Under the pieces are notes generated by a model. That model made no database searches, was not told where the DNA came from, and saw nothing but the letters and a program-made list of their open reading frames with translations. The position numbers and the translations under genes are program-made. A DNA stretch of 49,704 nt from Chloroflexota bacterium. Its GTDB lineage: Bacteria > Chloroflexota > Limnocylindria > P2-11E. Every line of letters starts with the position of its first letter. Within the stretch, counting starts at the first letter, position 1. Location: positions 1 through 49,704 of the forward strand of contig VBJD01000084.1 in NCBI GenBank assembly GCA_005887995.1, read 5' to 3'. This document shows, in pieces, positions 8,046-49,647 of this stretch.

Positions 8046-9770
8046 GTGGATCGGTGGCTTCGTCCGAGCCGTAGGGTCATGCACTGGGCGTGCGCGGTGG
8101 TGGTGGCCGTCGCGCTCGCGGAGACAACGTGGACGCCGGTCGCCGACGCGTCGTCCGCGAAGGCGCTCCAGCGAATCGATCCCGCGCTCTTCGCTCAGGC
8201 GAAGTCGCACCCGACGACCCTCTTCGACGTCATCGTGCAGGGTGCCCCGGATCGCAAGCGCGTCGACGCCCGTGAGAAGGCGAGATCCGTCGATCGTGCG
8301 GGCAAGGCCGTCCAAGAGGCCGGCGGGAGTCCGCGGCGCGCGCTGGGCATCATCGGCGGCGCGTCGGCGAAGGTCCGTGGCTCCGGGCTGATCACCCTCG
8401 CGAACGACGACGACGTCGCCTACATCTTCGCCGACGCGGCGCTCAACGCGAAGTTCGACCCGCAGACCGGCGCTTCGCTCGTCACCGGCGCGGGGACGCT
8501 CACCGTCAAGGCGCCGGCCACGTGGTCGCAGTACGGCGTCACCGGCCGCGGCATCGCGGTCGCGGTGATCGACAGCGGCATCTATGCGCATCGCGATCTC
8601 GCCGGACGCATCGTCGCGGCGATCGACTTCACCTCGGCGTCGCCGACCGTGTCGGCGACGCCGCTCGGCGATCCCGGCGGTCACGGCACGCACGTCGCAG
8701 GCCTCATCGCCGGCGACGGCACTGCCTCAGATGGCGCCTACACCGGCGTCGCTCCGGGCGCGAACCTCGTCGACGTGCGAGTGATCAACGCGAGCGGCGC
8801 GTCGAACGTCTCGACCGTCCTCGCGGGTCTGCAGTGGGTCCTCTCCAATCGCGCTCGCTACAACATCCGCGTCGCGAACCTCTCACTGGGCACGCCGGAG
8901 CAGACGAGCTACACGCTCAGCCCGCTCAGCGCGGCGGTCGAAGTGCTCCAGTACGCGGGCGTCAGCGTCGTCGTGTCCGCGGGCAACAGCGGTCCGGGCG
9001 CGGGCACGATCACGGCCCCCGGTGATGACCCGTTCGTCATCACGGTCGGCGCCGCCGACGACAACCGCACGAGCACGCTCGCCGACGACTCAGTTGCGGC
9101 CTTTTCGTCGGCCGGACCGACGCGCTACGACTCGCTCGCGAAGCCGGACGTCGTCGCACCTGGCCGCAGGATGGTGAGCCTGCGCTCGCCGGGTAGTGCG
9201 CTCGACGCGCTCCTGCCGGATCGCCAGGTCACCGCGTCGGGTTCGCCGACCGCTGAGTACTTCACGCTTTCAGGTACGTCGATGGCTGCCCCGATGGTCG
9301 CGGGGGCCGTCGCGCTCCTTCTCGAGCGCGATCCGACGCTCACGCCGCGTGAGGTGAAGCAGCGCCTCCTGTCGACCGCGGCGCCGCTGTCCTTCGGGTC
9401 GCGGTACACGCGCGGCGCCGGCCTGCTCGACACACTCGCCGCGGTCGCGTCCACTGATCACGGCGGCTGGAAGGATCGTTCGCGCGTGTCCGACGGCTTC
9501 GCGCAGATGGTGCTGCCGCTCATCTACGGCACCACGCTCACCTGGGAGGACGCGACGTTCAACGGTGGTGTCGACTCGAAGGGACGCCCCTGGACGCAGC
9601 TCACCTGGAGCGACATCACTTGGGACAACCTCACCTGGGATGCGATCTCGTGGAACGACATCACCTGGGAAGGCATCACCTGGGACTCCGTCACGCAGCA
9701 GGACATCACGTGGGAGACGACCTTCGATCCATTGAGCAGCAGCGGTCCGGGCTGGGGACCCCTGGACTGA
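8046..9770 (+). CDS. Secreted subtilisin-like serine protease (S8) with Trp-pentad tail
   Basis: The protein of about 574 residues has a signal peptide, a propeptide-like region and a complete S8 domain: catalytic Asp in AVIDSGI (about 176), His in GGHGTHVAG (about 213), the oxyanion Asn in SAGNSG and Ser in GTSMAAPM (about 412). I place the start at GTG 8046 because the GGGGGAG site lies 7 nt before it; GTG 8040 is too close. The last 70 residues are unusual: Trp occurs every five residues (ITWDN-LTWDA-ISWND-ITWEG-type units) before a short Gly/Pro end. It probably acts outside the membrane. The next gene is 11 bp downstream. Confidence 0.92.
   Translation: MDRWLRPSRRVMHWACAVVVAVALAETTWTPVADASSAKALQRIDPALFAQAKSHPTTLFDVIVQGAPDRKRVDAREKARSVDRAGKAVQEAGGSPRRALGIIGGASAKVRGSGLITLANDDDVAYIFADAALNAKFDPQTGASLVTGAGTLTVKAPATWSQYGVTGRGIAVAVIDSGIYAHRDLAGRIVAAIDFTSASPTVSATPLGDPGGHGTHVAGLIAGDGTASDGAYTGVAPGANLVDVRVINASGASNVSTVLAGLQWVLSNRARYNIRVANLSLGTPEQTSYTLSPLSAAVEVLQYAGVSVVVSAGNSGPGAGTITAPGDDPFVITVGAADDNRTSTLADDSVAAFSSAGPTRYDSLAKPDVVAPGRRMVSLRSPGSALDALLPDRQVTASGSPTAEYFTLSGTSMAAPMVAGAVALLLERDPTLTPREVKQRLLSTAAPLSFGSRYTRGAGLLDTLAAVASTDHGGWKDRSRVSDGFAQMVLPLIYGTTLTWEDATFNGGVDSKGRPWTQLTWSDITWDNLTWDAISWNDITWEGITWDSVTQQDITWETTFDPLSSSGPGWGPLD
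9591..9713 (+). repeat. 15-bp period coding repeat: W every fifth residue
   Basis: The 3' end of the S8 gene carries imperfect tandem 15-bp units encoding [I/L]-[T/S]-W-[D/E/S/N]-x. Tryptophans fall at ORF-track residues 518, 523, 528, 533, 538, 543, 548 and 558, with Gln taking the place of Trp at 553. The strict period suggests a regular extended or beta-solenoid surface rather than a random linker. Confidence 0.85.
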
Positions 9771-11166: not shown

Positions 11167-12612
11167 CTAGGGTCCCTCGCCTCGCGCGAGGTCAAGCGCG
11201 ACCGCGCTGACGACGTCGCCCGCGCGCTGCAGGTGACGGAGGTCGACCTTTTCGACGGTGTCCTTCGTCGTGTGCAGGATGTAGTCGCTCCAGAGCACGA
11301 GGATCGCAGGCACGCCGCGACGCGAGAACGGCTGCTGGTCGCTCCCGCCACCGCCGACGCCGTTGAACGGCACGCCGGCGCGCGACGCGGCCGCGCGGAA
11401 GCGGTCCTGGAGCGCGCGCGATTCGTTCGTCGCCTCGAGGATCTCCCCGCAGCAGCCAATGACATCAAGGTTGATCATCGCGACGAGGCTCTCGACGCGG
11501 CCGGGGCTCGAGGACATCCGCGCGATGTACGACTCGGACCCGAGGAAACCCTCCTCCTCGCCCGCGAACGCGACGAAGATCACCGAGCGCTTGAGCTCCG
11601 ATCTGTGCGCGGCGAGCACACGCGCGACCTCGATCGTGATCGAGGGCCCAGAGGCGTTGTCGTTCGCCGCCGCGAAGACCGTCCCGTTCGGATCGGTCCC
11701 GACTCCGTCGAGGTGTCCGCCGATGAGGACAGCGCGAGCCGCGTCGGTCCCGCTCGCGCGAAGGAGCCCGACGACGTTCGACGCCATCACCTGATGGACC
11801 GGCGTCACCGGCACGCTCATCTGAATGTTCGTGTCGACGGCGAAGCCGACATCGAGCGTGCTCGTGTTGCTACGCCGCGCGCGCACGGCGTCGCGGACCT
11901 GCGTGACGGTCTTTCCCGACGGCGCGAGGAGTTCGTTCGCGGTCGTCTCGCTCACGACGAGCATCGGGATCGTCTGCGCGAACTGCTGCGCGATGTATGA
12001 GTACTTGATCGTCGGCTCGCCGACGACGAGGATCCCTAGGCCACCGCGCTGCACGATGTTCTCCTGGTACCCGGTCACCGTCGGGCCGGTCACGAGGGCG
12101 ATGCGTCCCTTCACGTCGACGCCGGCGAAGTCATCCTGGCCGCCCGTCGCTGCGCCGCCGCCGACGACCGCGAGCTTCGCATCCGCGCTCCCATTCCCTG
12201 CGCGGCCGCCGATGCTCTCGGTGAAGTCGACGCGATGCGTCCACGTCTTCGCGTCGGCGCCGGTGCGGCTGAGCGTTGGAGTGCCCGCGAGGTCGACGAT
12301 CTGCACCGGAAAGCGCTGGAAGTACGTGCCGTTATCGCCAAGCGGCTCGAGGCCGATCTCCTTGAAGCGCTCCGCGACGTACTGCGCGGCCTCTTCGAAT
12401 CCAGGCGATCCGGTGAACCGGCCGCCGCGGGCCGGATCGGCGAGGTAGGCGAGGTGCTGGTGCGCCCTCTCGCCGTCGAAGCCGAGCGCCGCCGCGCTCT
12501 CCGGGCTCGCGCTCGCGGCCACCGTCGCGGACGCCACCGGCGTGCTCGGCGCGGGCATCGCGGGCAGCGATGCGCACGAGACGAGAGCGAGCGCGAATGC
12601 GAGATACCTCAC
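11167..12612 (-). CDS. M28-family aminopeptidase lipoprotein with PA domain
   Basis: This 481-residue exopeptidase starts at GTG 12612, overlapping the stop of the upstream fusion gene by four bases. A lipoprotein signal ends at LVSC, so it is anchored outside the membrane. A PA-type insert (GRIALVTGPTVTGYQ...) precedes the two-zinc M28 core: GGHLDGVG (His), ANDNASG (Asp), AFAGEEEGFLGS (catalytic Glu and zinc Glu), INLDVIGCC (Asp) and LHTTKDT (final His). All ligands are present. It should trim N-terminal residues from peptides. It closely parallels the peptidase half of the neighbouring fusion gene, implying duplication. Confidence 0.9.
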   Translation of the reverse strand: MRYLAFALALVSCASLPAMPAPSTPVASATVAASASPESAAALGFDGERAHQHLAYLADPARGGRFTGSPGFEEAAQYVAERFKEIGLEPLGDNGTYFQRFPVQIVDLAGTPTLSRTGADAKTWTHRVDFTESIGGRAGNGSADAKLAVVGGGAATGGQDDFAGVDVKGRIALVTGPTVTGYQENIVQRGGLGILVVGEPTIKYSYIAQQFAQTIPMLVVSETTANELLAPSGKTVTQVRDAVRARRSNTSTLDVGFAVDTNIQMSVPVTPVHQVMASNVVGLLRASGTDAARAVLIGGHLDGVGTDPNGTVFAAANDNASGPSITIEVARVLAAHRSELKRSVIFVAFAGEEEGFLGSESYIARMSSSPGRVESLVAMINLDVIGCCGEILEATNESRALQDRFRAAASRAGVPFNGVGGGGSDQQPFSRRGVPAILVLWSDYILHTTKDTVEKVDLRHLQRAGDVVSAVALDLARGEGP

Positions 12613-14987
12613 TCGGCCGCACCCATTTCGAGGAGCGCCTGCACGACGACCTCGCCGGATTCCCGCAGGCGCTTTGGATCGATCGAGGCCGGCGTGTCGC
12701 CGGTGGTGTGGAAGGGGCCGAGGTCGGTCGGGCCGACGCTGATCGCCGGCACCCGCCGGCGCAGCCACGACGCGTGATCGCTGGCGCCGATGAGCGGTGT
12801 GTATTCCAGGTCGTAGCCGAGCCGCTCCGCGGCTGAGCGCAGACGGTCGTGCAGCGAGAAGTTCTCATCCGACGCGGCGAGGCCACCGCAGCAGCCCTCC
12901 ATGTCGAGGTTGATATAGGCGACGACGTTCTCCGGCCGGTACGGCTTGGTGATGGAGTTCTGGACGAAGACTTCCGAGCCCACGAGCCCCTCCTCCTCAC
13001 CGGAGAACGCAGCGAAGACGAAAGAGTTCTTCAGCATCGCGCGGTGCTGCGCCAGCACGCGCGCCACCTCGATGATGACGGCCGGCCCCGAGCCGTTGTC
13101 GTTCGCGCCGGGGAACACCGTGCCGTTCGGATCCTTGCCCACGCCGTCGAGGTGCCCTCCCACGATGAGGTACTTCTTCGCGCGCTCCGGATCCGTTCCC
13201 GGCAGGAGGCCAACGACGTTCATCGTGTCGACCTCCTCGACGGGCCCGAGCGGAACGGAGACACGCACACGCGTGTCCGTGTCGAAGGACAGCGGCTCGG
13301 GTACGACGCGTTGCAGGCTCGGGCGCTCGCGAGCGCGGCGCTGACGTTCCTCAAGGGTCTTGCGCAGATCGCCGATCTGCTTGCCCGATGCGGCGATGAG
13401 CTCGTTCGCCACGGCCTCGCTGATCACGATCGAGGGCAGCGTGTCTTTTTCGAACGCGGGGATGGGGGAGAACTTGATGATGCCAACGGGCGCGTCGCTC
13501 GCCTGCACGAAGATGACCCCCTTCGCGCCTTCGCGGATCGCGATGTCGATCGGGTCGCCCTGCGTGGGCCCAGCGATCATCACGATGTTCCCCTCGGGAT
13601 GCACGCCGGCGTAGTCGCTGTACTCCGGCGTCTTCACACCGCCGCCGACGTACACGACGTTGCCCTCCGCGGTGCCGCCGGCGGCACGTCCGCCGACCCG
13701 CTCGGTGAAGTCGACGCGGTGCGTGAACGACTTCGCCTCCGCGCCGGTGGTCTCGAACGTCGGCGTCGCGGTGATGCGCACGACCGACTGCTTGAAGCTC
13801 TGGAAATACGAGCCAGTCTCGAGCGGCTGAAGGCCGATCTCCTTGAAGTGGTCGGCGACGTACTGCGCGGCGGCGACGTAGCCCGGCGAGCCGCTGAATC
13901 GTCCCTCGCGCGCCGGATCGCCGATGTACGCGAGGTGCTGCGCGGCACGCGGCGCATCGAACGAGCGGGCGATCGGCACATAGGAGCCCGCGGGCCCGAG
14001 CATCGGCGTGACGACGCGCATCGCGACGAGGACGGCCGCGAGGGCGGCAAGGGTGCGCCACGACAGGACACGGCCGAGCGCGATCGGCGTCCGCTCGAAC
14101 ATCGTGCGCAGGCCGTGGCCGAGCACGTTGAAGCCGAAGACGGCGCTCGCGAACGCCGCGGCGGGAACGAGCGCGATCCACGCGGAGCTGTACACGGCGA
14201 AACGCCCGCCGGCCAGGATCGCGCCCCATTCGGCGCTCGAAAAGATGAACTGCGACCCACCGCCGAGGCCGCGGTCGTCGATCGGGATGCTGAAGCCGCC
14301 GCCCACGACGATGCCGAGGAACCCGAGCTCGCCGAGCGCGAGCAGGATCGCGCTCGCCTCGAGCGCGCCCGACACCGCGAGGATGGGCATGAGGTTCGGC
14401 AGGACGTGCCGCGTGAAGAGCGCGAACTCGGAGAGGCCGAGCGCGCGTCCGGCCTCGAGGAAGGGCCGGCCTTGCAGCGCGACGACCGCCGAGCGCGTCG
14501 CGCGGCCGAAGCCCCACCACCCCGTGATCGCGAGCGCGAGGACGAACGCGGAGAGGCCCGAGCGGATGTCGAAGGCGAAGATCCATAGGAGTGCGAACAA
14601 GATGGTGGGGAACGCAGCGAACGCGTCGATGAGCGCGGAGACGAGGCGATCGGCAGCACGCCCCGAGAACCATCCTGCGACGGCGCCCAGGGTCGTCCCG
14701 GTGACGAGACGCGCGAGGAGCACGGCGAACGCGATCGTCAGAGTGGCGCGCGCGCCGAACATGACCTCGACCCAGATGTCTCGGCCCGCGTTGTCCGACC
14801 CGAGGGGATAACCGAACTGGCCGGGCTCGAACGGTGGCGGGATCGTGCGGGTGCCGATGACGACGAACGACCGTGTCTTCAGCGGATCGACCGATGTCAA
14901 CAGCGGCGCGGCGAGACCCAGTACGAGCCAACCCATGACGATGAGCAGACCGACGACGAGCTGCCAGGTGATCGCCCGTCGGATCAT
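12609..14987 (-). CDS. Fusion: DppC-type ABC permease + M28 peptidase
   Basis: One uninterrupted frame of 792 residues joins two normally separate proteins. Residues 1 to about 310 are a peptide-type ABC permease (TM1 at VVGLLIVMGWLVLGLAAPLL, DNAGRDIWVEVMFGARATL, and the EAA loop EAGRALGLSEFALFTRHVLPN). A further hydrophobic segment (LAALAAVLVAMRVVTPMLG) then leads into a complete M28 domain with PA insert: GGHLDGVG, ANDNGSG, SGEEEGLVGS, INLDMEGCC, FHTTGDT. The start is ATG 14987, overlapping the DppB stop as ATGA; the track start at 15761 runs through the upstream gene in the wrong frame. The extra helix would place the peptidase outside the cell. Confidence 0.88.
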   Translation of the reverse strand: MIRRAITWQLVVGLLIVMGWLVLGLAAPLLTSVDPLKTRSFVVIGTRTIPPPFEPGQFGYPLGSDNAGRDIWVEVMFGARATLTIAFAVLLARLVTGTTLGAVAGWFSGRAADRLVSALIDAFAAFPTILFALLWIFAFDIRSGLSAFVLALAITGWWGFGRATRSAVVALQGRPFLEAGRALGLSEFALFTRHVLPNLMPILAVSGALEASAILLALGELGFLGIVVGGGFSIPIDDRGLGGGSQFIFSSAEWGAILAGGRFAVYSSAWIALVPAAAFASAVFGFNVLGHGLRTMFERTPIALGRVLSWRTLAALAAVLVAMRVVTPMLGPAGSYVPIARSFDAPRAAQHLAYIGDPAREGRFSGSPGYVAAAQYVADHFKEIGLQPLETGSYFQSFKQSVVRITATPTFETTGAEAKSFTHRVDFTERVGGRAAGGTAEGNVVYVGGGVKTPEYSDYAGVHPEGNIVMIAGPTQGDPIDIAIREGAKGVIFVQASDAPVGIIKFSPIPAFEKDTLPSIVISEAVANELIAASGKQIGDLRKTLEERQRRARERPSLQRVVPEPLSFDTDTRVRVSVPLGPVEEVDTMNVVGLLPGTDPERAKKYLIVGGHLDGVGKDPNGTVFPGANDNGSGPAVIIEVARVLAQHRAMLKNSFVFAAFSGEEEGLVGSEVFVQNSITKPYRPENVVAYINLDMEGCCGGLAASDENFSLHDRLRSAAERLGYDLEYTPLIGASDHASWLRRRVPAISVGPTDLGPFHTTGDTPASIDPKRLRESGEVVVQALLEMGAAE

Positions 14988-15907
14988 GCCGCGGCTCCCG
15001 TTGCGGCGTGCACGAAGCGCGCGGCGAGCGCGTCGAGCGAGAAGCGCACGATGGCGATCGTGACCGCAAGCGCGCCGAGCAGTGTGCCCGCGGTCGCCGC
15101 GTCGAAGCGGCGGATCGCCTGCAACAGCGAGAAGCCCAGTCCGGGCCACGAGAAGAAGACCTCGACGACGGGCAGCGTCGAGAGCGCGATCGAGAGTGCG
15201 GCCGCGACCGCGCCGAGGATCGGCACCGCGGCGTTGCGCAGCGCGTGACGGAAGAGGACGAGCCTCTCCATCAGCCCTTTCGATCGTGCGGTGCGCACGT
15301 AGTCGCTCATCAGCGTTTCGTCGACGGCGACGTACGTGAAGTTCGCGATCTGCGCGAACGGTCGCGCCGCGAGAACGACGACCGGGAGGATGAGGTGGTC
15401 GTCCCACCCGAAACCGAACGAGGGCCAGAGGCGGATGCCCCAGCGGCTGACCATGTTCGCCGAGAGCAGGATGAGGAGGATCGCGAGGAGGAACGAGGGC
15501 GTCGAGACGGCGAGCACCGTGACGCTGAGCAGGGCGCCCCGCAGACGCCGGCTCTTCGTCGCGGCGGCGGCGATGCCGACGAGCATGCCGAGCGCGGTCG
15601 CGATGAGCACGGCGAGGCCGACGAGCACCATGCTCTTCGGGTACGCGTCGAGAAGGACTTCGCCCATCGATCGGCGCCGCCCGCCGAGGATCGAGGTCGA
15701 CGTCGCCTCGCCGAGGCTGCCTTGCAGGAGGCTGCCGAAGTAGTCCTGCGTGCCTTCCCACGCACGGCGCACGATCTCGTCGAGGCCGAGGTGCTGGGCG
15801 CGTGTGCTCGCGGCAACGAGCGCGAACTGCGCGAGGACAACGATGAGGATGAAGGTGAAGAGGACGAGGACGATACGGGTGAGGATGCCGAGCAGAGCGC
15901 GGTTCAC
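14984..15907 (-). CDS. DppB-type ABC transporter permease
   Basis: The 307-residue protein is an oligopeptide/nickel-type permease: N-terminal helix ILTRIVLVLFTFILIVVLAQF, a long extracellular loop, then five helices with the EAA-like motif YVRTARSKGLMERLVLFRHALRN. I start it at GTG 15907 (MNRALLGILTRI), since the track's longer N-terminus is non-coding and antisense to metG. It pairs with the permease half of the downstream fusion through an ATGA overlap. No ATPase or binding protein is encoded next to it, so these must come from elsewhere in the genome. Confidence 0.88.
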   Translation of the reverse strand: MNRALLGILTRIVLVLFTFILIVVLAQFALVAASTRAQHLGLDEIVRRAWEGTQDYFGSLLQGSLGEATSTSILGGRRRSMGEVLLDAYPKSMVLVGLAVLIATALGMLVGIAAAATKSRRLRGALLSVTVLAVSTPSFLLAILLILLSANMVSRWGIRLWPSFGFGWDDHLILPVVVLAARPFAQIANFTYVAVDETLMSDYVRTARSKGLMERLVLFRHALRNAAVPILGAVAAALSIALSTLPVVEVFFSWPGLGFSLLQAIRRFDAATAGTLLGALAVTIAIVRFSLDALAARFVHAATGAAA

Positions 15908-15944: not shown

Positions 15945-17494
15945 ATGCGGACCGCCAAAAGTTCTACCTCACGACCGCCATTGACTACGTCAACGGCGCG
16001 CCCCACCTGGGTCACGCGTACGAGAAGACGGGTACGGATGCGCTTGCCCGCTTTCATCGTCAGCGGGGCGATGAGGTCTTCTTCCTCACGGGCACCGACG
16101 AGAACGCGACGAAGAACGAGCAAGCGGCGCGCGAGCAGGGAGTGCCGACGCAGCCGTTCGTCGACGAGCTCGCCGCCGAATTCAAGCGGCTATGCGATAC
16201 GTACCAGATCTCGTATGACCGTTTCATCCGAACGTCGGTCGACGAGGATCACAAGCAGGGCGTGCAGGAGTTCGTTCGCCGCTGGATCGCGAACGGCGAT
16301 GTCTATAGAGGGACGTACGAGGGCTACTACTGCGTCGGCTGCGAGGCCTTCTACGACGAGTCCGATCTCGTCAACGGCCAGTGCCCGCTTCACCCGACGC
16401 GTCAGATCCAGCACATCAAAGAGGAGAACTACTTCTTCCGGCTGTCGAAGTACGAGAAGGCGCTCAAGGATCTCTACGCGAAGGATCCAGACTTCACGCT
16501 CCCGGACACCCGCCGCAACGAGGTGCTTGGCTGGCTCGAGCGCGGCCTGAAAGACGTCAGCGTGTCGCGCGGACGGAATCTCGAGTGGGGGATTCCGTGG
16601 CCGGGAGAGCCGGGGCACACCGTGTATGTCTGGTTCGATGCCCTCATCAACTACGTGACGGGAGTCGGCTTCGGAACGGACGAGGCGAAGTTCAAGAAGT
16701 GGTGGCCGGCCGATCTCCACGTGATCGGTCTCGATATCAGTCGCTTCCACTGCCTCTACTGGCCGGCGATGCTGCTAGCGGCCGGCGTACCGATCCCGAA
16801 GCGCGTGTTCGTCCATGGCTTCCTCGAGAACAGGGGCGGGAAGCTGGCGAAGTCGAGCGGCAACGTGTTCGACGCGTTCGCGTTCGCCGACGAGTTCGGC
16901 GTGGACGGCGCGCGCTACCTCCTGTTGCGCGAGGCGCCGTTCGAGAAGAGCTCGCCGATCTCAGCGGAGTCGTTCGCAAAGCGATTCAACGCCGACCTCG
17001 CCAACGATCTCGGCAACCTCGTGTCGCGCACGACGACGCTGCTGGAGAAGTTCTCGGGCGGGCGCGTGCCGGAGCCGCACGAAGGCGAGAGTGAGCGCGC
17101 GCTGCGAGCGCGCGCCGAGAAGACGCTCACGGAGCACGACCCGGCGGCGACGAGCCTTCACTTCGCCGACGCGCTCGCTGCGATCTTCGCTCTCGTCAGC
17201 GAAGGGAATCAACACTTCCAGCGCACGCAGCCCTGGCAGCTGGTGAAGGACGAGAGCAAGGGCCCCGAGCTCGAGGGCTCGCTCTACGCCGGCATCGAGG
17301 CGGTCCGCCTCGTCGCGTACCTGCTGTACCCCTACACACCGAACATCAGCGCGAAGATCTGCGAGCTCCTCGGCGTGATCCATCCCGAGAAGGCCCGATG
17401 GCAGGATGTCGCGAAGTGGGGCGTGCTGAAGCCGGGCGATCCCGTGAAGACCGGCCCCGCGCTGTTCCCGCGTCTCGAGCGCGTCGCCACCTAG
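15945..17494 (+). CDS. metG: Methionyl-tRNA synthetase, with an apparent 1-base frameshift at the start
   Basis: MetG charges tRNA-Met. The frame that begins KFYLTTAIDYVNGAPHLGHAY contains the class I HIGH motif as HLGH, the zinc knuckle CVGCEAFYDE...CPLHP, VWFDALINYV, and GGKLAKSSGN as the KMSKS loop. The C-terminal anticodon-binding helices end at 17494, with no extra tRNA-binding domain. ATG 15945 is one base out of frame: ATGCGGACCGCC would need one more G (ATGGCGGACCGC) to give the expected M-A-D-R-Q-K-F-Y. The first in-frame start, GTG 16142, would remove the HIGH motif, so it cannot be real. A sequencing deletion is the simplest explanation. Confidence 0.92.
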
Positions 17495-28911: not shown

Positions 28912-31109
28912 TCGAGGGCGACGCCGCGACGAGCGCGCCGGCGGGCGCGCGCACGTCGACCGACGTCTTCGCGACGCCGGAGCGGCGCGTCGAGGGGCAC
29001 GGCAAGGTCACCGGTGCCGCGGACTTCGCGGCGGATATCAAGCGCGACGGGATGCTGCACGTCGCCTTCGTTGGAAGCCCGTATCCGCACGCGCTCGTGC
29101 GCCGTGTCGACGTGTCCGGGGCGCGCACCGCGCCGGGTGTCCGCGCGGTGCTCGCCGGCGCGGACGTGCGGCCCGCGCGGTTCGGCCGGCGTCTTCAGGA
29201 CTGGCCGGTGCTCGCCTGGGATCGCGTGCGATTCATCGGCGACCGCGTCGCTGCGGTCGCGGCCGACACGCTGGAGCACGCTGAGGCCGCGGCCGCGCTC
29301 GTCGACGTCGAGTACGAAGAGCAGCCGGCGATCTTCGACGCCGAGGCGGCGCTTGCCGACGGTGCGCCGGTGCTGCATCCCGATGCCGCCGACTACGCGG
29401 TCGTCGCACGTCGCGGGGAGCAGGTGAAGCGATCGCCGGTGCCGCATCCGAACCTGCAGGGCCACGAGGTCCACGAACACGGCGATGTTGCCGGCGGATT
29501 CGCGAAGGCTGCGCGGATCTTCGAACACACTTTCCGCGTGCCGCCAGTCCATCAGGCGTACATCGAGCCGCGTGCGGCCTTGGTGTGGATCGAGGGCGAC
29601 GTCACGCACGTCGTAAGCACGAACAAGGCGCCGTTCTCGCTGCGCGAGCAGATGGCGCAGACGCTCGACCTGCCGGCGGAGTCGATCGTCGTGCATACGC
29701 CGCACGTCGGCGGCGACTTCGGCGGGAAAGGCCTCTCGCTCGACGAGCACGCGCTCGTCTTCCTCGCGCGCGCCACGAAGCAGCCGGTGCGCTCGCTGCT
29801 CCGGTACGCCGACGAGCTGCAGATCTCGAATACGCGGCACGGCGCGGTGATCCATCTCCGCACGGGGATCGATCGCGACGGCCGCATCACCGCCCACGAG
29901 TCGCGAGTCATCTTCGATGGCGGCGCGTATGCGGCGGGCAAGCCGGTGAACTCGCTCATGCCCGGCGACGCGATGCTCACCCTCGCCGGCTATCACGTCC
30001 CGGCTGCGCGCGTGGAGGCGTCGGCCGTGTACACGAACCATCTACCGGCCGGGCACGATCGCGCGCCGGGCCAGCCGCAGAACTCGTTCGCCGCCGAGTC
30101 GCACATCGACCTCATCGCGCGGGAGCTCGGCATCGATCCGCTCGACTTCCGCGAACGAAACGCCATCCGCGCCGGACAGATCGACATCCACGGGGACCAG
30201 TGGCACGCATCGGAGGTCCCGCGCGTGCTCGCGACGCTGCGGCGCGAGGCGAAATGGGATGCGCCGCTCGCGAGTTCGCACCCTAGTTCTGCTCAGGGAC
30301 GCGGGCGCGGCGTCGCGCTCGGCGTTCGCCACGTCGGTCGCGGGAAGACGAGCATGGAGCTGACGCTGGGGCCCGACGGCTCGGTGGAGGTGAAGACCGG
30401 TGCGCCCGACCAGGGCGGCGGCGCGCACACGATGATCCAGCGCGTCGTCGCGCGCGAACTCGATCTCGGTCCGGAGCGAGTTCGCATCGAGCAGCTCGAT
30501 ACGGCGACGTCGCCCGTCGATCCCGGCGTCGGCGGCAGCCGGGTCACGCCGGTGCACGGCAACGCCGCACTCGACGGGGCGCGGAAGATCAAGGCGGCGC
30601 TCGCCGAGGGCCGCGCCGCGCCGATCACCGTGACCGGTACCGCGGAGCAGCAACAGCACATGTACGGCGCGTACGCGTACGCCATCGAGGTCGAGCTCGA
30701 TCGCGAGACCGGCGCGTTCAAGATCACCGACGCCACGCTCGTCGCCGACGTCGGCACGGTCATCAACCCTGTCGCCGTTCGTGGTCAGCTCGAGGGGGGC
30801 TTCGCCTTCGGCCTCGGTCAGGCGGCGATGGAGGAGCTCGTCATCGACGACGGCCGCGTGGTGACGGCGAACCTCGGCGATTACAAGATCCCGACGATCG
30901 GCGATGTGCCGAAGCTGCGCCTCGTGCTCATCACCGACGCGCCGGGCCCGGGACCGTTCGGCGCGAAGTCCGTGGGAGAGCTCGCGAACGCTGCGATCAC
31001 CGGTGCGGTCGCCAACGCCGTCGCGAATGCGGGCGCGCGGGTCTATTCCTTGCCGATCACCGCGGAAAAGGTGTTCGCCGAGCTACATCAGGGGCACTCA
31101 CCCGCATAG
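28908..31109 (+). CDS. Molybdenum hydroxylase large (Mo-cofactor) subunit
   Basis: The 733-residue protein is a xanthine-oxidase-family large subunit. It has RRVEGHGKVTGAADFAADI, HVGGDFGGKG, RAPGQPQNSFAAESHIDLIA, GAPDQGGGAHTMIQRVV and the C-terminal GAKSVGELANAAITGA with the catalytic Glu. The AYRCSFR loop of form I CO dehydrogenase is not present, so this is an organic-substrate hydroxylase of unknown substrate. I chose GTG 28908, giving the usual four-base overlap with CoxG, over the track's GTG 28884. The C-terminus overlaps the convergent lipoprotein gene by 22 bp. Confidence 0.9.
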   Translation: MIEGDAATSAPAGARTSTDVFATPERRVEGHGKVTGAADFAADIKRDGMLHVAFVGSPYPHALVRRVDVSGARTAPGVRAVLAGADVRPARFGRRLQDWPVLAWDRVRFIGDRVAAVAADTLEHAEAAAALVDVEYEEQPAIFDAEAALADGAPVLHPDAADYAVVARRGEQVKRSPVPHPNLQGHEVHEHGDVAGGFAKAARIFEHTFRVPPVHQAYIEPRAALVWIEGDVTHVVSTNKAPFSLREQMAQTLDLPAESIVVHTPHVGGDFGGKGLSLDEHALVFLARATKQPVRSLLRYADELQISNTRHGAVIHLRTGIDRDGRITAHESRVIFDGGAYAAGKPVNSLMPGDAMLTLAGYHVPAARVEASAVYTNHLPAGHDRAPGQPQNSFAAESHIDLIARELGIDPLDFRERNAIRAGQIDIHGDQWHASEVPRVLATLRREAKWDAPLASSHPSSAQGRGRGVALGVRHVGRGKTSMELTLGPDGSVEVKTGAPDQGGGAHTMIQRVVARELDLGPERVRIEQLDTATSPVDPGVGGSRVTPVHGNAALDGARKIKAALAEGRAAPITVTGTAEQQQHMYGAYAYAIEVELDRETGAFKITDATLVADVGTVINPVAVRGQLEGGFAFGLGQAAMEELVIDDGRVVTANLGDYKIPTIGDVPKLRLVLITDAPGPGPFGAKSVGELANAAITGAVANAVANAGARVYSLPITAEKVFAELHQGHSPA

Positions 31110-32173
31110 GTCGTGTTCCCGAATTCCTGGAACGTGATCGGCTGCTTTACGAGCTGATAGGTCACGGCGATGTTCATCTCGACGTCAAAACCCGACTTCG
31201 ACAGGCAGCCCGACCCGTATCCGGGCTTGATGCGCTCGATGAGCTTCACCACGAGCGCCTTGTCGAGCCCCGCGAACTGCTCCGCCGTCTTGCTGTTGCC
31301 GAGGATCACGTCCGCCAGCGCCGATGCCGCGCTCGTCTTGATGAGGTCGAGCGCCTTCTTGTGCGCGTTCACCATGCGCTTCACGAGGTCGGGCTTCGCC
31401 GCGATCACGTCCTCGCGCGTCATGAGACCGAGCGCGAGCGCGTGGTCGGATCCGGTCCACTCCTGATGTGACTTCGGGTCCCAGATCGGGACGAGCGCGT
31501 AGCCGGCGTTCGTCTCGAGCACGCGACTGGTGATCGGCTCCCAACCCGCGATCGCGTCGACCTTGCCGCTCTGCAGCGCGGTGTAGATCGCTGCGGGGTC
31601 GCCGCCGAGGTTTACCAGGCTCACGTCCTTGTCCGGCGTGAGCCCGGCTTTCTTCAGGTACACGTTCGCCATGGCCCATGAGCCGGACCCAGCGCCGGTG
31701 ACGCCGACGTTCTTCCCCTTGAGGTCCGCGACCGCCTTCACGGAATCCTTCAGCTGCGTGCGCACGAGCAGGCTGAAGATCTCGCGGTCGTAGGTCGCGA
31801 CCACCATCTTCCATGGTGACCCCGCGATGCGCGCGATCGGATCGTGCACGAATGCGAAGAGTCCGAAGTCGTACTCCTTCGCGATCATCGCCGCCCGCAG
31901 TGTGCTGCTCGATCCGAGCACGAAGTCCGTCACCTCGATGTTCTCCTCACCGAAGTAGTCCTTCGCGTACGCGATGAGGCTGGCGAGATTCAGCTCCGTG
32001 GAGACGACACTCGGCAGCTTGACCTGATCCTTCGGCGGCCTTGGTGTCGCCGATGCCGCGGCGGCGCTCGTGCCGGCCGACCCAGTGGCCGAGGGCGTGC
32101 CCGTGCCGCCGCACGACGCGACGAGCAGGGCGGCGATGACGAGCAATGACGCGATGCGAGCGGAATGATGCAT
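31088..32173 (-). CDS. NitT/TauT-type substrate-binding lipoprotein (NMT1/SsuA-like)
   Basis: This 361-residue protein starts at ATG 32173, six bases after AAGGAGG. A lipoprotein signal ends LVASC, followed by an Ala/Thr linker, and the mature domain has the NMT1 pattern: DFVLGSSSTLRAAMIAKEYDFG, ADLKGKNVGVTGAGSGSW, GKVDAIAGWEPI. It should bind a small organic anion for the permease and ATPase encoded just upstream (32189-33738). The ligand is unknown; phthalate-, taurine- and nitrate-type ligands are all precedents. Confidence 0.9.
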   Translation of the reverse strand: MHHSARIASLLVIAALLVASCGGTGTPSATGSAGTSAAAASATPRPPKDQVKLPSVVSTELNLASLIAYAKDYFGEENIEVTDFVLGSSSTLRAAMIAKEYDFGLFAFVHDPIARIAGSPWKMVVATYDREIFSLLVRTQLKDSVKAVADLKGKNVGVTGAGSGSWAMANVYLKKAGLTPDKDVSLVNLGGDPAAIYTALQSGKVDAIAGWEPITSRVLETNAGYALVPIWDPKSHQEWTGSDHALALGLMTREDVIAAKPDLVKRMVNAHKKALDLIKTSAASALADVILGNSKTAEQFAGLDKALVVKLIERIKPGYGSGCLSKSGFDVEMNIAVTYQLVKQPITFQEFGNTTYAGECP

Positions 32174-32188
32174 GACCAGCCTCCTTTT

Positions 32189-32971
32189 TCATGATGCGAG
32201 GATCGCGGTGGGGCGCCAGCGTAGGAGGCGGTCCTCCACACGCTTGGCGATCTCGACGAGGACGACGGCGATGGCCATGAGGAGCAACAGGATTGCGTAC
32301 GTGCGGTTCGTATCGAGCAGGCCGGCGCTGATCACCATGCGGTAACCGAGCCCGGACGTCGATCCGACGAACTCGCCGACGACGGCGCCGGACAGGGCGA
32401 AGCTGACGCTCGTGCGAAGGGCCGCGAAGATCCATGCGAAGACCGAGGGCAGCACGACGTAGCGGGCGAGGTCCCATCGATCGCCACCCATGACGCGGAG
32501 GGCCTTCACGAGCTCCGGGTCGACCGAGCGGATGCCGAGGTACGTGTTGAAGAAGATGACGAAGAACACCGTGAACAAGGAGAGGAAGATCTTCGAAGCG
32601 ATCCCCAGGCCGAACGCGATGATCAGCACTGGCGCGAGCGCGATCCGTGGCAACGAGTTGAACGCCACGAGCACCGGTTCGACGGTCTCCGCGAGCGGTC
32701 GCAGGTAGCCGAGGAGCAGCCCGAAGACCACACCGCCGCCGATCCCGAGTAGGAGGCCGATCGTCGCCTCCTGCAGCGTGACCGTGACGTCTTTCACGAG
32801 CAGGCCCGACGCCGAATAGCGAGCGATCTCCTGGAGCGCCGCGGAGGGCCGCGCGACGATGATCGGATCGAGGATCGCTGGCAGCCCGAGCCCACCGGTG
32901 AGCGCTTCCCAAAGGAGCAACAACGCTCCGACGAAAGCCAGGCGCCGCGAGACGAGACTGAGCGTCCTCAC
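32189..32971 (-). CDS. NitT/TauT-type ABC transporter permease
   Basis: The 260-residue inner-membrane protein has six likely helices and the SsuC/TauC signature around ALRVMGGDRWDLARYVVLPS (EAA loop), with IALAPVLIIAFGLGIASKI and GLGYRMVISAG. It forms the channel of the importer whose ATPase overlaps it by four bases (GTGA) and whose binding protein follows 15 bp downstream. Confidence 0.93.
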   Translation of the reverse strand: MRTLSLVSRRLAFVGALLLLWEALTGGLGLPAILDPIIVARPSAALQEIARYSASGLLVKDVTVTLQEATIGLLLGIGGGVVFGLLLGYLRPLAETVEPVLVAFNSLPRIALAPVLIIAFGLGIASKIFLSLFTVFFVIFFNTYLGIRSVDPELVKALRVMGGDRWDLARYVVLPSVFAWIFAALRTSVSFALSGAVVGEFVGSTSGLGYRMVISAGLLDTNRTYAILLLLMAIAVVLVEIAKRVEDRLLRWRPTAILAS

Positions 32972-33738
32972 GCCGGCACCGCGCGAAACTCGTCGCGCAG
33001 ATCCTTCCAGATACGTGTCTCCAGCTCCGCGAACGCCGGTGACGCGCGCATCTCGAACGGATCACGAGGCGAGGGCAGCGGGATGTCGTAAATGCGCTTC
33101 ACACGGCCTGGTCGCTTCGAGAGCACAACGACTCGCTGAGCGAGCGTGATCGCTTCGGCGAGATCGTGCGTGACGAAGAGGATCGTCGTCCGCCGTCGTT
33201 CCCAGATCCGTAGCAGCTCGGCCTGGAGAAGCATGCGGTTCTGCGCGTCGAGTGCGCCGAACGGCTCATCCATGAGGATCGCCTCGGGTTCGTACGCGAG
33301 CGTGCGTACCAGCTGCACACGCTGGCGCATGCCGCCGGACACTTGGTGCGGGTAGTAGTGCTCGAAGCCATCGAGTCCGACGAGTGCGATCAGCTCCCGC
33401 GTGCGCTGTTCCCGGTGAGCGACCGGTACCGCGTGTATCTCCATGCCCACGTGGATGTTCTCGGCAAGCGTCCGCCATGGAAGCAGCGTGTCGCGTTGGA
33501 ACACGTAACCGAGGCGCGTCCCGTTCCGCGCGCCTCCGTCGAGCGCGATACGGCCGAGCATCGCGCACTCGGCCGGGTCGAGCAGACCCGCGACCGCATT
33601 CAGGAGCGTCGATTTCCCGCAGCCCGAGGGACCGAGGAGGGCCACGAAGTCGCCGGTCGCGACCTCGAGCGAGACGTCGTCGAGGACCTTCACGCCTTTT
33701 CGAAACTGGATTCCCACGCCCTCGATCGAGATGCGCAT
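32968..33738 (-). CDS. NitT/TauT-type ABC transporter ATPase
   Basis: The 256-residue ATPase carries Walker A GPSGCGKST, Q-loop FQRDTLLPW, signature VSGGMRQRV, Walker B ILMDEPFGALD and the H-loop FVTHDL. It powers the importer with the permease at 32189. The start is ATG 33738, two bases after the ThDP-enzyme stop, so enzyme and transporter form one operon. Confidence 0.95.
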   Translation of the reverse strand: MRISIEGVGIQFRKGVKVLDDVSLEVATGDFVALLGPSGCGKSTLLNAVAGLLDPAECAMLGRIALDGGARNGTRLGYVFQRDTLLPWRTLAENIHVGMEIHAVPVAHREQRTRELIALVGLDGFEHYYPHQVSGGMRQRVQLVRTLAYEPEAILMDEPFGALDAQNRMLLQAELLRIWERRRTTILFVTHDLAEAITLAQRVVVLSKRPGRVKRIYDIPLPSPRDPFEMRASPAFAELETRIWKDLRDEFRAVPA

Positions 33739-33740
33739 CG

Positions 33741-35537
33741 CTAGCGGAAGCGCTTCTGGACGCGCCTCCGGACGATCGTGTCGACGAGCGCGGGCATCCG
33801 CTTCTCACGCACGTACGCCGCGGCACGTGCGATCGCGGGACCGGCCTGATCAGGATCGTTGATCGGCCCTTCCGCGTACCAGCCCATGCTGCGTGCCATC
33901 GCGGCGAAATCCGGCGCGGGATCGTCGATCTCCTGACCAACGCGCGCGTTCTCCACGGGCGTGCCGCGATGCCGCGCGACGCGGATCTGGTGCTCGAAGT
34001 CGTTGTAGTAGGCGCGGTTGTTGTACATGACCGCAAGGATCGGGATGCGGCTGTTCGCCGCGGTCCAGAGCGCGCCCGGGTCGTACATGAGGTCGCCGTC
34101 CGGTTGGATGTCCACGACGAGCTTGTCCGTGCCGCGATACGCGAGTCCGACGCCAAGCGAGACGGCGATCTGCGTCGCCGTGCCGAAGGACCGGCCGGGA
34201 TGACGCGCTGGCGTGTCCATGTCCCACAGGCGCAGCGCCCAGTCCTCGAGCGTGTTCGCAGTGAGCACCCAGTCGTCGTTCTTGATGACCGACCAGATCT
34301 CCGAGGCAAGTCGCGGCGCGGTCATCGGCGATGCGCCCCAGTCGACCTTCGCATCGCGCTCCCACTCATCGACCATCGCTTCGTGACGCGCCGCGATCGC
34401 GCGGCGCCGCGCGGACACATCGCGTCCGCGCATCCGGTCGCGTAGCAAGCGGCGCAGCTCGGGCAGTGCGAGGCGCGTGTCCGCGACGACCGAGAGCGTC
34501 ACGGGCTGGAAGTCGCCGAGGTCCTCTGCCCACTTCGAGAGGCGCAGCTCGGACAGACCGATGTCGACGACCGGCGTGCCTGGGGGGACGCGCGAGCGCT
34601 TCGCGCGCTCACGGCTGTCCCGGTCGAGCTCGTTGAGGGCACGATGCAGATCGCCGACGTCGACGGAGATGACGAGGTCCGCTTCCGCGAGCGTCTCGTC
34701 GGCCGCGAACGACACGTTCAGGGGATGGCGGTTCGGGAAGTTGACGCGACCGTGCATGTCGACGACGGCGGCGCCGATCTCCTCGGCCAGCGCGACGAGC
34801 TCGTCGAACGCATCGGGATGACGCCCGGTGAACTCGGTGACGATCACCGGCCGCTGCGCGCCGGCGATCATGTCGGCGGCGCGCGCCAGCGACGCGGGCT
34901 CGGCCTGCACCGGCGCGGGCCGGCCAGCGTTCACGACGCTCTCTACCGAGAGCGGATGGCCGATCTCGTCCTCCTGCAGACCGGCGTCGTAGCAGAGGTA
35001 CACCGGGCCCGCGGGCTCGGTCGTCGCGATGCGGAACGCGCGCGCGAACGAGGCGGGGAAGTCGTCGATCGACGCGGGCTGGTCATCCCACTTCGTGAAG
35101 TTCCGCACCGCCTCGCCCTGCACCTGCGCGGTGTGGATCCAGTCGATCGCCGGTCGGCGCCGCCGCCGATCCATCGGCCCGGTGCCGCCCATCACGATCA
35201 CCGGCACGCGGTCGAGCTGTGCGTAGTAGACGCCCATTGTCGAATGCAAGAGGCCGACGACATCGTGGACGATCGCGCCCATCGGCTTACCCGTGGTCTT
35301 CGCGTAGCCGTGCGCGAGCGAGACGGCGACCTTCTCGTGCGTACAGAGGATGATCTCGGGCTTGCCCTCGCCGTAGTTCACGAGCGAGTCGTGAAGCCCG
35401 CGGTACGTCGCGCCGGGGTTGAGCGCGACGTATTCGATGCCGAAGCCCTGGAGCAGATCGACGATGACGTCGCTGCCGAAACGGGGCGAGCGCTTCTGCG
35501 CCCGCCCCGTCCTCGATCCGGGTGCGACCTGGGTTAT
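33741..35537 (-). CDS. Thiamine-diphosphate-dependent enzyme (decarboxylase/ligase-like), start unresolved
   Basis: The frame encodes a three-domain ThDP enzyme: CTHEKVAVSLAHGYA (catalytic Glu), a central domain around GRHPDAFDELVALAEE, and the ThDP site PDGDLMY with NN 25 residues later. Benzoylformate decarboxylase, acetolactate synthase and sulfopyruvate decarboxylase share this layout, so the product is not assigned. GTG 35381 is the first canonical start but cuts off conserved GSDVIVDLLQGFGIEYVALNPG, which is in frame upstream to about 35477. No ATG, GTG or TTG exists farther up; the only overlap-type candidate is ATA 35537, which overlaps the preceding TAA as ATAA. It feeds the transporter operon. 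Confidence 0.82.
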   Translation of the reverse strand: MTQVAPGSRTGRAQKRSPRFGSDVIVDLLQGFGIEYVALNPGATYRGLHDSLVNYGEGKPEIILCTHEKVAVSLAHGYAKTTGKPMGAIVHDVVGLLHSTMGVYYAQLDRVPVIVMGGTGPMDRRRRRPAIDWIHTAQVQGEAVRNFTKWDDQPASIDDFPASFARAFRIATTEPAGPVYLCYDAGLQEDEIGHPLSVESVVNAGRPAPVQAEPASLARAADMIAGAQRPVIVTEFTGRHPDAFDELVALAEEIGAAVVDMHGRVNFPNRHPLNVSFAADETLAEADLVISVDVGDLHRALNELDRDSRERAKRSRVPPGTPVVDIGLSELRLSKWAEDLGDFQPVTLSVVADTRLALPELRRLLRDRMRGRDVSARRRAIAARHEAMVDEWERDAKVDWGASPMTAPRLASEIWSVIKNDDWVLTANTLEDWALRLWDMDTPARHPGRSFGTATQIAVSLGVGLAYRGTDKLVVDIQPDGDLMYDPGALWTAANSRIPILAVMYNNRAYYNDFEHQIRVARHRGTPVENARVGQEIDDPAPDFAAMARSMGWYAEGPINDPDQAGPAIARAAAYVREKRMPALVDTIVRRRVQKRFR

Positions 35538-36592
35538 TTGCCGACCCCTCGCTTCTCAGCGTCCGACACGTACTTGTCGTCGAACACCTTCGTCACGTCC
35601 ATGTCCTTCACGTTCGGGTTCTGCGCGACGAGCGCATCACGCGACGCGTTGAACGACGCGACCGTCGGGTGCGGATAGAGCGGGAAGATCGACTGGACGT
35701 AGAAGTCGTAGGTCTGCGAGACCGCCGCCGCGTCGTCCGCCTTGTTGATGTCGAGTTTGAGCAGCTTCCCGAGGATCGGCAGCGTCTTCGCCTTGTCCTT
35801 CTTCGCGATGCCGAGCGCCTCGATCTCCGCATCGATGTACGCCTGCACCGCCTGCGGATTCTTCTCGGCCCACGACTTCAGCACGACGGTGCAGTTGTCC
35901 GTCGCGAGGACCTTCTCGGCCGCGAGGTCGTAGACGACCTTGAAGCCGGAGGCGAGGAGCTTCACGGTGTCCGGCGGGTGGCCCGGGCCCGCGTACGCGG
36001 CGCCACCGAGCATCGCTGCGGCGAGGTTCGCGGTGTTGCCGAACGCCTGGATGTTGACGTCCTTCTGCGGGTCGAGCCCCATCTTCTGCAGCGCCGTCAC
36101 GGCGGCGATGTACGCGGAGCCGCCGATGCTCGCGACCCCGACCGTCTTGCCCTTGAGATCGGCGGGACTCTTGAAGTCCGACTTCGCAAGAAGCTGCCAC
36201 GGCGTCACGGGCACGAAGAGCGCGATGACCTGCATGTCGCTGCCGCCGGCGACGGCGCTCATCGCCTCCGTGCCGCCGAAGTTGCCGACCTGCGTGTTGC
36301 CCGACACGAGCGCGGCTGACGATGCAACGCCGCCGTCGATGAGGTCGAGCGTCACGTCGAGGTTGTACTTCTCGAAGATGCCGAGTTCCTTGGCCAGGAA
36401 CGGCGCGAGATTCGACGGCGTCACGTTGCCGTACGACGACTTGATCTTGATCGGCGAGGGCTTCGGTGTCTGCGTCGCGGCCGCCGCCGACGCCCCCGGT
36501 GTGCCCGTTGCCGCCGGCGCTGTCCCACCGCACGCCGTGACAACGAGGGTGAGCATCATCAAGGGAACGAGTAAGACCCGAGCGGATCGCAT
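35534..36592 (-). CDS. NitT/TauT-type substrate-binding lipoprotein
   Basis: The 352-residue protein starts at ATG 36592 with GGGAGG six bases upstream, and its lipoprotein signal ends LVVTAC. The mature part has NLAPFLAKELGIFEKYNLDVTLDLIDGG, NTQVGNFGGTEAMSAVAGG and ADLKGKTVGVASIGGSAY, an NMT1/THI5-like fold. It heads the operon of ThDP enzyme, ATPase, permease and a second binding lipoprotein, so it is a likely partner of that permease. A palindromic site overlaps its promoter. Confidence 0.9.
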   Translation of the reverse strand: MRSARVLLVPLMMLTLVVTACGGTAPAATGTPGASAAAATQTPKPSPIKIKSSYGNVTPSNLAPFLAKELGIFEKYNLDVTLDLIDGGVASSAALVSGNTQVGNFGGTEAMSAVAGGSDMQVIALFVPVTPWQLLAKSDFKSPADLKGKTVGVASIGGSAYIAAVTALQKMGLDPQKDVNIQAFGNTANLAAAMLGGAAYAGPGHPPDTVKLLASGFKVVYDLAAEKVLATDNCTVVLKSWAEKNPQAVQAYIDAEIEALGIAKKDKAKTLPILGKLLKLDINKADDAAAVSQTYDFYVQSIFPLYPHPTVASFNASRDALVAQNPNVKDMDVTKVFDDKYVSDAEKRGVGK

Positions 36593-48582: not shown

Positions 48583-49647
48583 TTAGCCGCCGAGCTTGCG
48601 GTCTTGCGCGCTCTTCACGAACGACGTGTCGAGCATCTTGCTGATGTCCACGCTCTTGATCTTGTCGTTGTCCGGTCCGAGGATGGCGACCGCGTCCTTG
48701 AACTGCTCCACCGCCGGGAATGGATACACCGGCGTTACCGGCGAGCTGCCGCCGATGAAGAAGTTGTACGCGTGCGTCGGGGACTCGTCCTCGGTGATCT
48801 TGAAGTACTTCTTGAGGACCGCGACCGAGCCGTCCTTGTCCTTGGCCATGCGCGAGCGCGCGATGACCGTCGCGTCGACATACGCCTGGACAACGTCCTT
48901 GTTCTCAGTCCAGAACTTGCGCTGCACGATGATCCCGGTGTTCGCGGCCGGCAGCTTCTGCGAGGCGAGGTCGAGGATCACGTTGAGACCGGCCTTGACG
49001 AGCTCCTGGTCCTCCGGTGGGTCGTCGACGCCCGCGTCGACCGAGCCGTTAAGGAGGCCCTGGGTGCGGAGCGTGTGCGAGCCAAGTGCGACGATCTGGA
49101 CGTCCTTGTCGGGATCGATGCCGTTCGCCTTGAGGGCAGCGCGCGTCGCGATGTCCGACGAGCCGCCCTTGTTGGAAACGCCGACCTTCTTGCCCTTGAG
49201 GTCGTTCAGCGTCTTGATCGCCTTCTGCGCGTAGAGCAGGTACGGATAGACCGGCGCCATGTTGCCGACCATCACGAGGTCGGCGCCCCCGGCGACGCCC
49301 GAGAGAGCCTCGGAGCCGCCGAACTGGCCGATCTGGATCTGGTTCGCGAGAAGCGCCGCGCTCGTCTGCGCGCCACCACTGATCGATTGCATGTCGACGT
49401 CGAGTCCGCGCTCCTTGAAGATGCCCTTCTCGAACGCGTACCACATGACCCAGTCATCCGCGCTGATGTTGCTGTACGCCGCGACGACCTTCTTGCAGCA
49501 GGCCATCGGCTTGTCCGCCGGCCCGCTCGCCGTTGCCTGTGCTTGCGTCGCGGCGGTCGTTGGGGTTGCCGTCGACGCCGGTTGTCCACCGCACGCCGCG
49601 ACGAGCATCGCGATGACAGCCGCGAAGACCACCAGTCTCAGCCTCAT
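48583..49647 (-). CDS. NitT/TauT-type substrate-binding lipoprotein
   Basis: The 354-residue protein starts at ATG 49647 with GGGAGG five bases upstream; its lipoprotein signal ends LVAAC. The mature part has VMWYAFEKGIFKERGLDVDMQSISGG, IQIGQFGGSEALSGVAGGADLVMVGN and LKGKKVGVSNKGGSSDIATRAAL, an NMT1-like fold. It resembles the lipoprotein at 35534 more than the one at 31088. No permease or ATPase is encoded next to it in the window, so it may share the transporter at 32189-33738. Bases 49648-49704 are its upstream region; I see no clear promoter there. Confidence 0.9.
   Translation of the reverse strand: MRLRLVVFAAVIAMLVAACGGQPASTATPTTAATQAQATASGPADKPMACCKKVVAAYSNISADDWVMWYAFEKGIFKERGLDVDMQSISGGAQTSAALLANQIQIGQFGGSEALSGVAGGADLVMVGNMAPVYPYLLYAQKAIKTLNDLKGKKVGVSNKGGSSDIATRAALKANGIDPDKDVQIVALGSHTLRTQGLLNGSVDAGVDDPPEDQELVKAGLNVILDLASQKLPAANTGIIVQRKFWTENKDVVQAYVDATVIARSRMAKDKDGSVAVLKKYFKITEDESPTHAYNFFIGGSSPVTPVYPFPAVEQFKDAVAILGPDNDKIKSVDISKMLDTSFVKSAQDRKLGG

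Follow-up and report, generated by a model that had tools for sequence, protein, structure and literature searches.

Substrate delivery in type I importers is generally held to depend on a binding protein. The closest described systems to the one reported here are DppABCDF and OppABCDF (Escherichia coli, 8z1v and 8z21; Mycobacterium tuberculosis, 8wd9), which are built around a DppB and DppC pair with the BPD_transp_1 domain, an EAA loop and a six-helix core. The E. coli DppC structure has six core helices, a site of the EAA-loop type is the contact of DppC-type subunits with the ATPase, and Dpp importers need a substrate-binding protein (SBP) (PMC12136057). In the ABC importers GlnPQ and OpuA, substrate-binding domains are fused to the membrane subunit (PMC8025302, PMC11065425). 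On the peptidase side, the PA-M28 aminopeptidases BSAP/YwaD (6hc6), AM-1 aminopeptidase (2ek8) and PaAP (8ac9) are not found in transporters. The M28 fold also occurs in ectodomains without peptidase activity, namely those of the transferrin receptor (TfR) and nicastrin, which are eukaryotic and stand outside transporters as well. Finally, fusions of an ABC-2-type permease with an M1 aminopeptidase exist as annotation.

Here, we analyzed a 49,704-nucleotide stretch of DNA from a Chloroflexota bacterium (contig VBJD01000084.1; hereafter, the window), in which one gene encodes a DppC-type permease and an M28 peptidase. The locus shares with the Dpp and Opp systems the permease pair and its characteristic domain, loop and core, but its DppC is extended by a further helix and a peptidase ectodomain, and its operon lacks an SBP and an ATPase. 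The M28 part resembles the three aminopeptidases in its fold, its M28 domain and its full set of metal and catalytic residues but, unlike them, is covalently joined to a permease. As in GlnPQ and OpuA, the permease would carry an extracytoplasmic accessory domain, which however has a peptidase fold and not an SBP fold. The putative PA-M28 ectodomain on a membrane protein recalls the arrangement of TfR and nicastrin, to which the inactive relatives of the window fusion are comparable, whereas the window copy has an intact site. The ABC-2/M1 fusions likewise combine an ABC membrane domain with a metallopeptidase but differ in permease class and peptidase family. The permease and peptidase families are thus well known, as are fusions of SBPs to permeases, but the papers searched yielded no description of a Dpp-type permease joined to an M28 domain, whether active or dead. 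Automatically annotated entries for such fusions must nevertheless exist among public genomes.

One open reading frame encodes a permease, an added helix and a peptidase

The sequence-only reading of the window had proposed that a single frame at 12609-14987 carries a DppC-type permease, an additional membrane helix and a two-zinc peptidase, and all of these parts were recovered in our analysis. The dppC::M28 fusion gene (12609..14987, minus strand) starts with an ATG at 14987, ends with a TGA at 12609 and encodes 792 amino acids; the only stop in its 792 codons is the terminal one. Third-position GC was 0.82 to 0.95 in all 66-codon blocks of the gene, junction included, and this steadiness did not point to any change of frame at 14000-14100. 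The protein is composed of a DppC-type permease (residues 1-299), an extra transmembrane (TM) helix (about 313-331) and a PA-like plus M28 region (about 331-792).

In the permease part, the Pfam domain BPD_transp_1 matched residues 97-299 (E 7.9e-17), and the nearest solved sequences were OppC and DppC. The best NCBIfam match, Opp2C, reached 143.8 bits against a cut-off of 300. Judged by these matches, the permease half is a member of the DppC/OppC family, for which the curated models did not reach a named Dpp, Opp or Nik subtype. The EAA coupling loop (EAGRALGLSEFALFTRHVLPN, residues 178-198; 14394..14456, minus strand) was intact in the window fusion and in all other DppC proteins with an M28 tail that were checked, and thus speaks for a functional permease. 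Hydropathy revealed five of the six usual DppC helices and the one added at residues 313-331 (13995..14051, minus strand); the usual fourth helix was under the threshold in the window protein and was detected in the G026 paralogue. If the core has six helices like that of the E. coli structure, the added one is the seventh and the tail would lie outside the cell; from this TM count, the M28 domain is predicted to be extracytoplasmic.

In the peptidase part, Peptidase_M28 matched residues 590-783 (E 2.1e-34; 119.4 bits, cut-off 21.3), and the six two-zinc ligand and general-base residues (H612, D630, E664, E665, D695 and H760) were all present. The nearest solved sequences were M28 aminopeptidases of Aeromonas and Bacillus. 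The fusion protein gave no Pfam match to a PA domain. An AlphaFold2 model of the whole fusion had a pLDDT of 52.9 and its membrane part was unusable; with this low-confidence model, Foldseek returned a fold match to the PA-containing M28 enzymes 2ek8, PaAP and BSAP.

The joined form is genuine and widespread in Chloroflexota

The window comes from a draft metagenome assembly, in which a chimera or a frameshift could have joined two genes, and the neighboring stand-alone M28 gene could cause such a misjoin. However, full-length relatives in one frame were found in G002 (69% identity), G003 (66%) and G012 (63%), the last of which belongs to another genus. The same junction was present in all three, and the fused tail was 59 to 66% identical to their tails. 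A case that the sequence-only reading had named as refuting the fusion, homologues that are always split, is contradicted by these three and by many others. In G004, from the same genus, the fusion copy is spread over several frames with a locally repeated stretch (L045, G004:C161), which would fit an artefact; these broken frames most likely reflect draft quality.

Among 400 sampled genomes from the phylum, distant fusions were detected in three other families (G110, G270 and G179), and fusions in other families were about 37% identical to the window fusion. G110 carries five copies, and at one of its loci (L115, 939-10112, G110:C121), three DppC-M28 fusion genes in a row come after a single dppB, and none of the three encodes the general-base Glu. 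A match running from permease into peptidase was found in 40 of the 199 genomes sampled from the class of G270, a class other than the window's (counted from the individual matches), and many fusions of this class are a single DppB-DppC-M28 chain with open frames of about 1,130 to 1,330 codons. A contig scan of public records found the fusion in VBFY01000007 and JANXXG010000036, both labelled Chloroflexi, and returned only Chloroflexi fusions. Given this number of one-frame homologues, together with the steady third-position GC, an assembly or frameshift artefact is highly improbable and we rejected it. The joined form is genuine and widespread in Chloroflexota.

The fusion gene lies in a three-gene operon

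On the minus strand, the gene order is dppB, dppC::M28 and a lipoprotein M28 gene, three overlapping genes beside metG (16142..17494, plus strand), the divergent neighbor of dppB. The dppB-type gene (14984..15907, minus strand; BPD_transp_1, E 1e-24) encodes the partner subunit of 307 amino acids and overlaps the fusion gene by ATGA. On the other side, a GTGA overlap connects the fusion gene to that of the stand-alone M28 peptidase (11167..12612, minus strand; 481 amino acids), which has the lipobox LVSC and all six active-site residues. This is the tandem stand-alone copy that had been read from the sequence, and it is 46% identical to the fused tail. Because of the lipoprotein signal at its N terminus, it should be membrane tethered too. 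Next to metG, dppB and the fusion recur in each of the five genomes of the family that have them (the window's, G002, G003, G004 and G012). The stand-alone M28 gene follows the fusion in G002, G003 and G004; the G012 contig stops shortly past the fusion.

No SBP_bac_5 or Dpp-type ATPase gene was found in the window's operon, a lack that the sequence-only reading had not brought up. Within the window, an ATPase was matched only near 33 kb; this match was weak (86 bits) and lies about 17 kb away in a different gene set. The window's genome has 31 SBP_bac_5 matches and about four DppD/F-type ATPase pairs, numbers which suggest that ATPases are plausibly shared between systems.

Several other genes of the window were noted on inspection. 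By eye, 31088-36559 looks like a set of an NMT1-type binding protein, a permease, an ATPase and a thiamine-diphosphate enzyme, and a binding protein resembling this NMT1-type one is encoded at 48583-49632. At 8079-9770 on the plus strand, we recognized, also by eye, a subtilisin-like peptidase with C-terminal Trp-rich repeats (ITWD, LTWD and similar).

Peptide trimming may be coupled to import

Our best reading of the locus, to which we give about even chances, is that a tethered M28 aminopeptidase works in concert with a DppBC importer, which shared ATPases would drive, and that the system belongs to a wider group in which ectodomains may take the place of the SBP. The C subunit of a DppB/DppC pair would have gained the added helix and an extracytoplasmic M28 aminopeptidase, which would be positioned above the external opening of the translocation path. 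There, it would remove N-terminal residues from peptides and release the small products at the pore, and the lipid-anchored second M28 of the operon would add to this local trimming. Energy for transport would be supplied, via the conserved EAA loop, by DppD/DppF-type ATPases whose genes lie elsewhere. The outside location, drawn from the TM count, as well as catalysis, ATPase sharing, peptide import and channelling are all steps that we infer.

Several observations support such a trimming importer: the one-frame fusions in the window, its relatives and other families; the M28 match (Pfam E 2.1e-34) with six of six residues, the nearest relatives among OppC/DppC and M28 aminopeptidases, and the PA-M28 fold match; and the retained EAA loop, the overlapping operon genes and the metG adjacency in five of five family genomes. 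Related systems also pair with further peptidases, such as the 1588-residue M28/MA/M28 protein of G270. Against it stand the operon without SBP or ATPase, whereas Dpp importers need an SBP (PMC12136057), the missing active-site residues in most other fused peptidases and the poor membrane part of the model. The coupling of trimming to import, which had been proposed from the sequence, is thus plausible for the window gene in view of its intact active site, the second tethered M28 of the operon and the conserved EAA loop. Since most distant fused M28 domains lack key residues, catalysis would not be the general purpose of the fusion.

Most fused M28 domains have lost active-site residues

All six residues are present in the window fusion, in three family relatives and in the stand-alone M28 copies, and they are also kept in the first copy of G110. 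Among the fused M28 domains read, a full active site was found only in the window's lineage and in this one other copy. At least one key residue is missing in 25 distant fused M28 domains, namely the four other G110 copies, that of G179 and 20 fusions of the G270 class, including G270 itself. The general-base position, E664 in the window fusion, is not Glu in 19 of these 20, and the 20th (L164) lost the other residues.

Furthermore, the window's family contains two sets of tailed DppC paralogues, types 2a and 2b, with M28-like tails devoid of catalytic motifs. Much of the type 2b tail was covered by the M28 profile match (probability 98.8), and a search with this tail against PDB sequences gave nothing relevant. 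The type 2a tail gave only a weak M28 profile match, and its own profile found the Bacillus M28 enzyme BSAP (E 1.2e-5). In the window's own genome, a DppC has an M28-derived tail that lost all catalytic motifs (L121, G000:C180, 6597-9053, minus strand), and further paralogues with a motif-less M28-derived tail, mostly paired with dppB, were found at L048, L050, L052, L053, L057 and L059. The dppB/tailed dppC pair of G000:C180 adjoins a class I tRNA synthetase gene (ileS-like).

The loss of the active site in most relatives hints that the M28 part may be a docking domain for the importer. The strongest rival to the tethered aminopeptidase is in line with this: the ectodomain would first of all be a tethered ligand-binding (receptor) domain that replaces the SBP, with peptidase activity as an extra kept in few lineages, the window's among them. 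We consider this possible, with a probability clearly below even. The 25 distant domains and the type 2a/2b tails, one of them in the window's own genome, speak for it, and inactive M28-fold receptors have a precedent in TfR, to which Foldseek gave a fold match, and in nicastrin. Related orphan pairs with a PQQ-like (G105) or a kelch propeller (fused in G269, neighboring in G116 and G318) also fit this view.

The receptor reading draws further support from a scan for partner genes in 29 stretches that carry a fusion, the majority of which included flanks of up to about 8 kb. With one SBP query, by which divergent members could be missed, a match was obtained in only 1 of the 29 stretches (L192), where it comes with a separate canonical B-C pair, versus an SBP beside the pair in three of three canonical control loci. 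With one ATPase query, of the same limited reach, an ABC ATPase outside the fusion genes was matched in four of the 29 (L174, L176, L192 and L193). On the other hand, the window copy keeps every catalytic residue, its tandem copy looks active, and SBPs encoded elsewhere could serve the pair.

Tailed permeases belong to a wider group of orphan DppBC pairs

The tails of the collected DppC proteins were either 1-26 or 356-539 residues long. A long, fully supported branch of the permease tree separates 37 canonical DppC proteins from the tailed and other orphan permeases. This split, like the absence of an SBP and an ATPase in cis, would also be expected if the permease did not transport and were a mere membrane anchor for an ecto-aminopeptidase. 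However, none of the M28-tailed DppC proteins checked has lost the EAA loop motif, the DppB partner, which an anchor would not need, is kept adjacent or fused, and a single helix would suffice as an anchor. A pure anchor role is therefore improbable, and less likely than either a trimming importer or a docking domain.

In an enlarged permease tree, all M28-tailed DppC proteins, including that of the window, formed one clade (99/88), which suggests a single origin of the architecture on the permease side. The M28 tree, which fast-evolving degenerate domains and long branches could distort, placed the tail of the window's lineage together with active stand-alone M28s from the same family, and the AU test rejected a common clade for all fused M28 domains (p ~1e-79). 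On the peptidase side, the pattern thus points to exchange or duplication involving both fused and stand-alone M28 copies: the window's lineage may have acquired its tail by exchange, or this tail may be the source of the stand-alone copies. A recent origin of the fused tail by copying of the tandem M28 was rejected too, given their 46% identity and a split that predates the genus in the M28 tree.

Other members of the group carry different domains. A DppC with a C-terminal domain of about 350 residues (type 3), unrelated to M28 and paired with dppB, is encoded at L054, L055, L056 and L058. In G105 (L118, 5798-8044), DppC has a PQQ/BamB-like beta-propeller tail, and its gene is followed by that of a hydantoinase-like amidohydrolase. 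In G269 (L119, 3937-5916), a kelch propeller is fused to the N terminus of DppB, and a kelch gene adjoins dppB-dppC in G116 and G318 (L120, 7314-8651; L129, 5816-7078 and 12861-14222), these separate copies carrying a C-terminal hydrophobic segment. No tail or clear partner was seen for the orphan DppBC of G191, G163 and G317.

As a broader and speculative proposal, to which we would give about one chance in four, the SBP of the Chloroflexota orphan DppBC pairs may have been replaced by attached ectodomains of unrelated folds (active or dead M28, PQQ-like, kelch and the type 3 domain). These pairs would then represent an SBP-free subclass of type I importers, and the window protein would be a rare member with a working peptidase as its docking domain, trimming and importing in one complex. 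Peptidase or dead-peptidase ectodomains on Dpp/Opp-type permeases without an operon SBP make it testable whether another fold can replace the SBP, and whether extracellular digestion can be coupled to uptake within one complex. In addition, active sites graded from intact to degenerate on one permease family offer a natural experiment in the passage from enzyme to receptor.

In G270 (L116, 1979-6745), the gene of the 1588-residue M28/MA/M28 protein adjoins that of a DppC-M28 fusion with a degenerate site, and the first M28 domain of this protein has six of six active-site residues. Giants of this kind, their frames about 1,600 codons long, also occur elsewhere in the class of G270.
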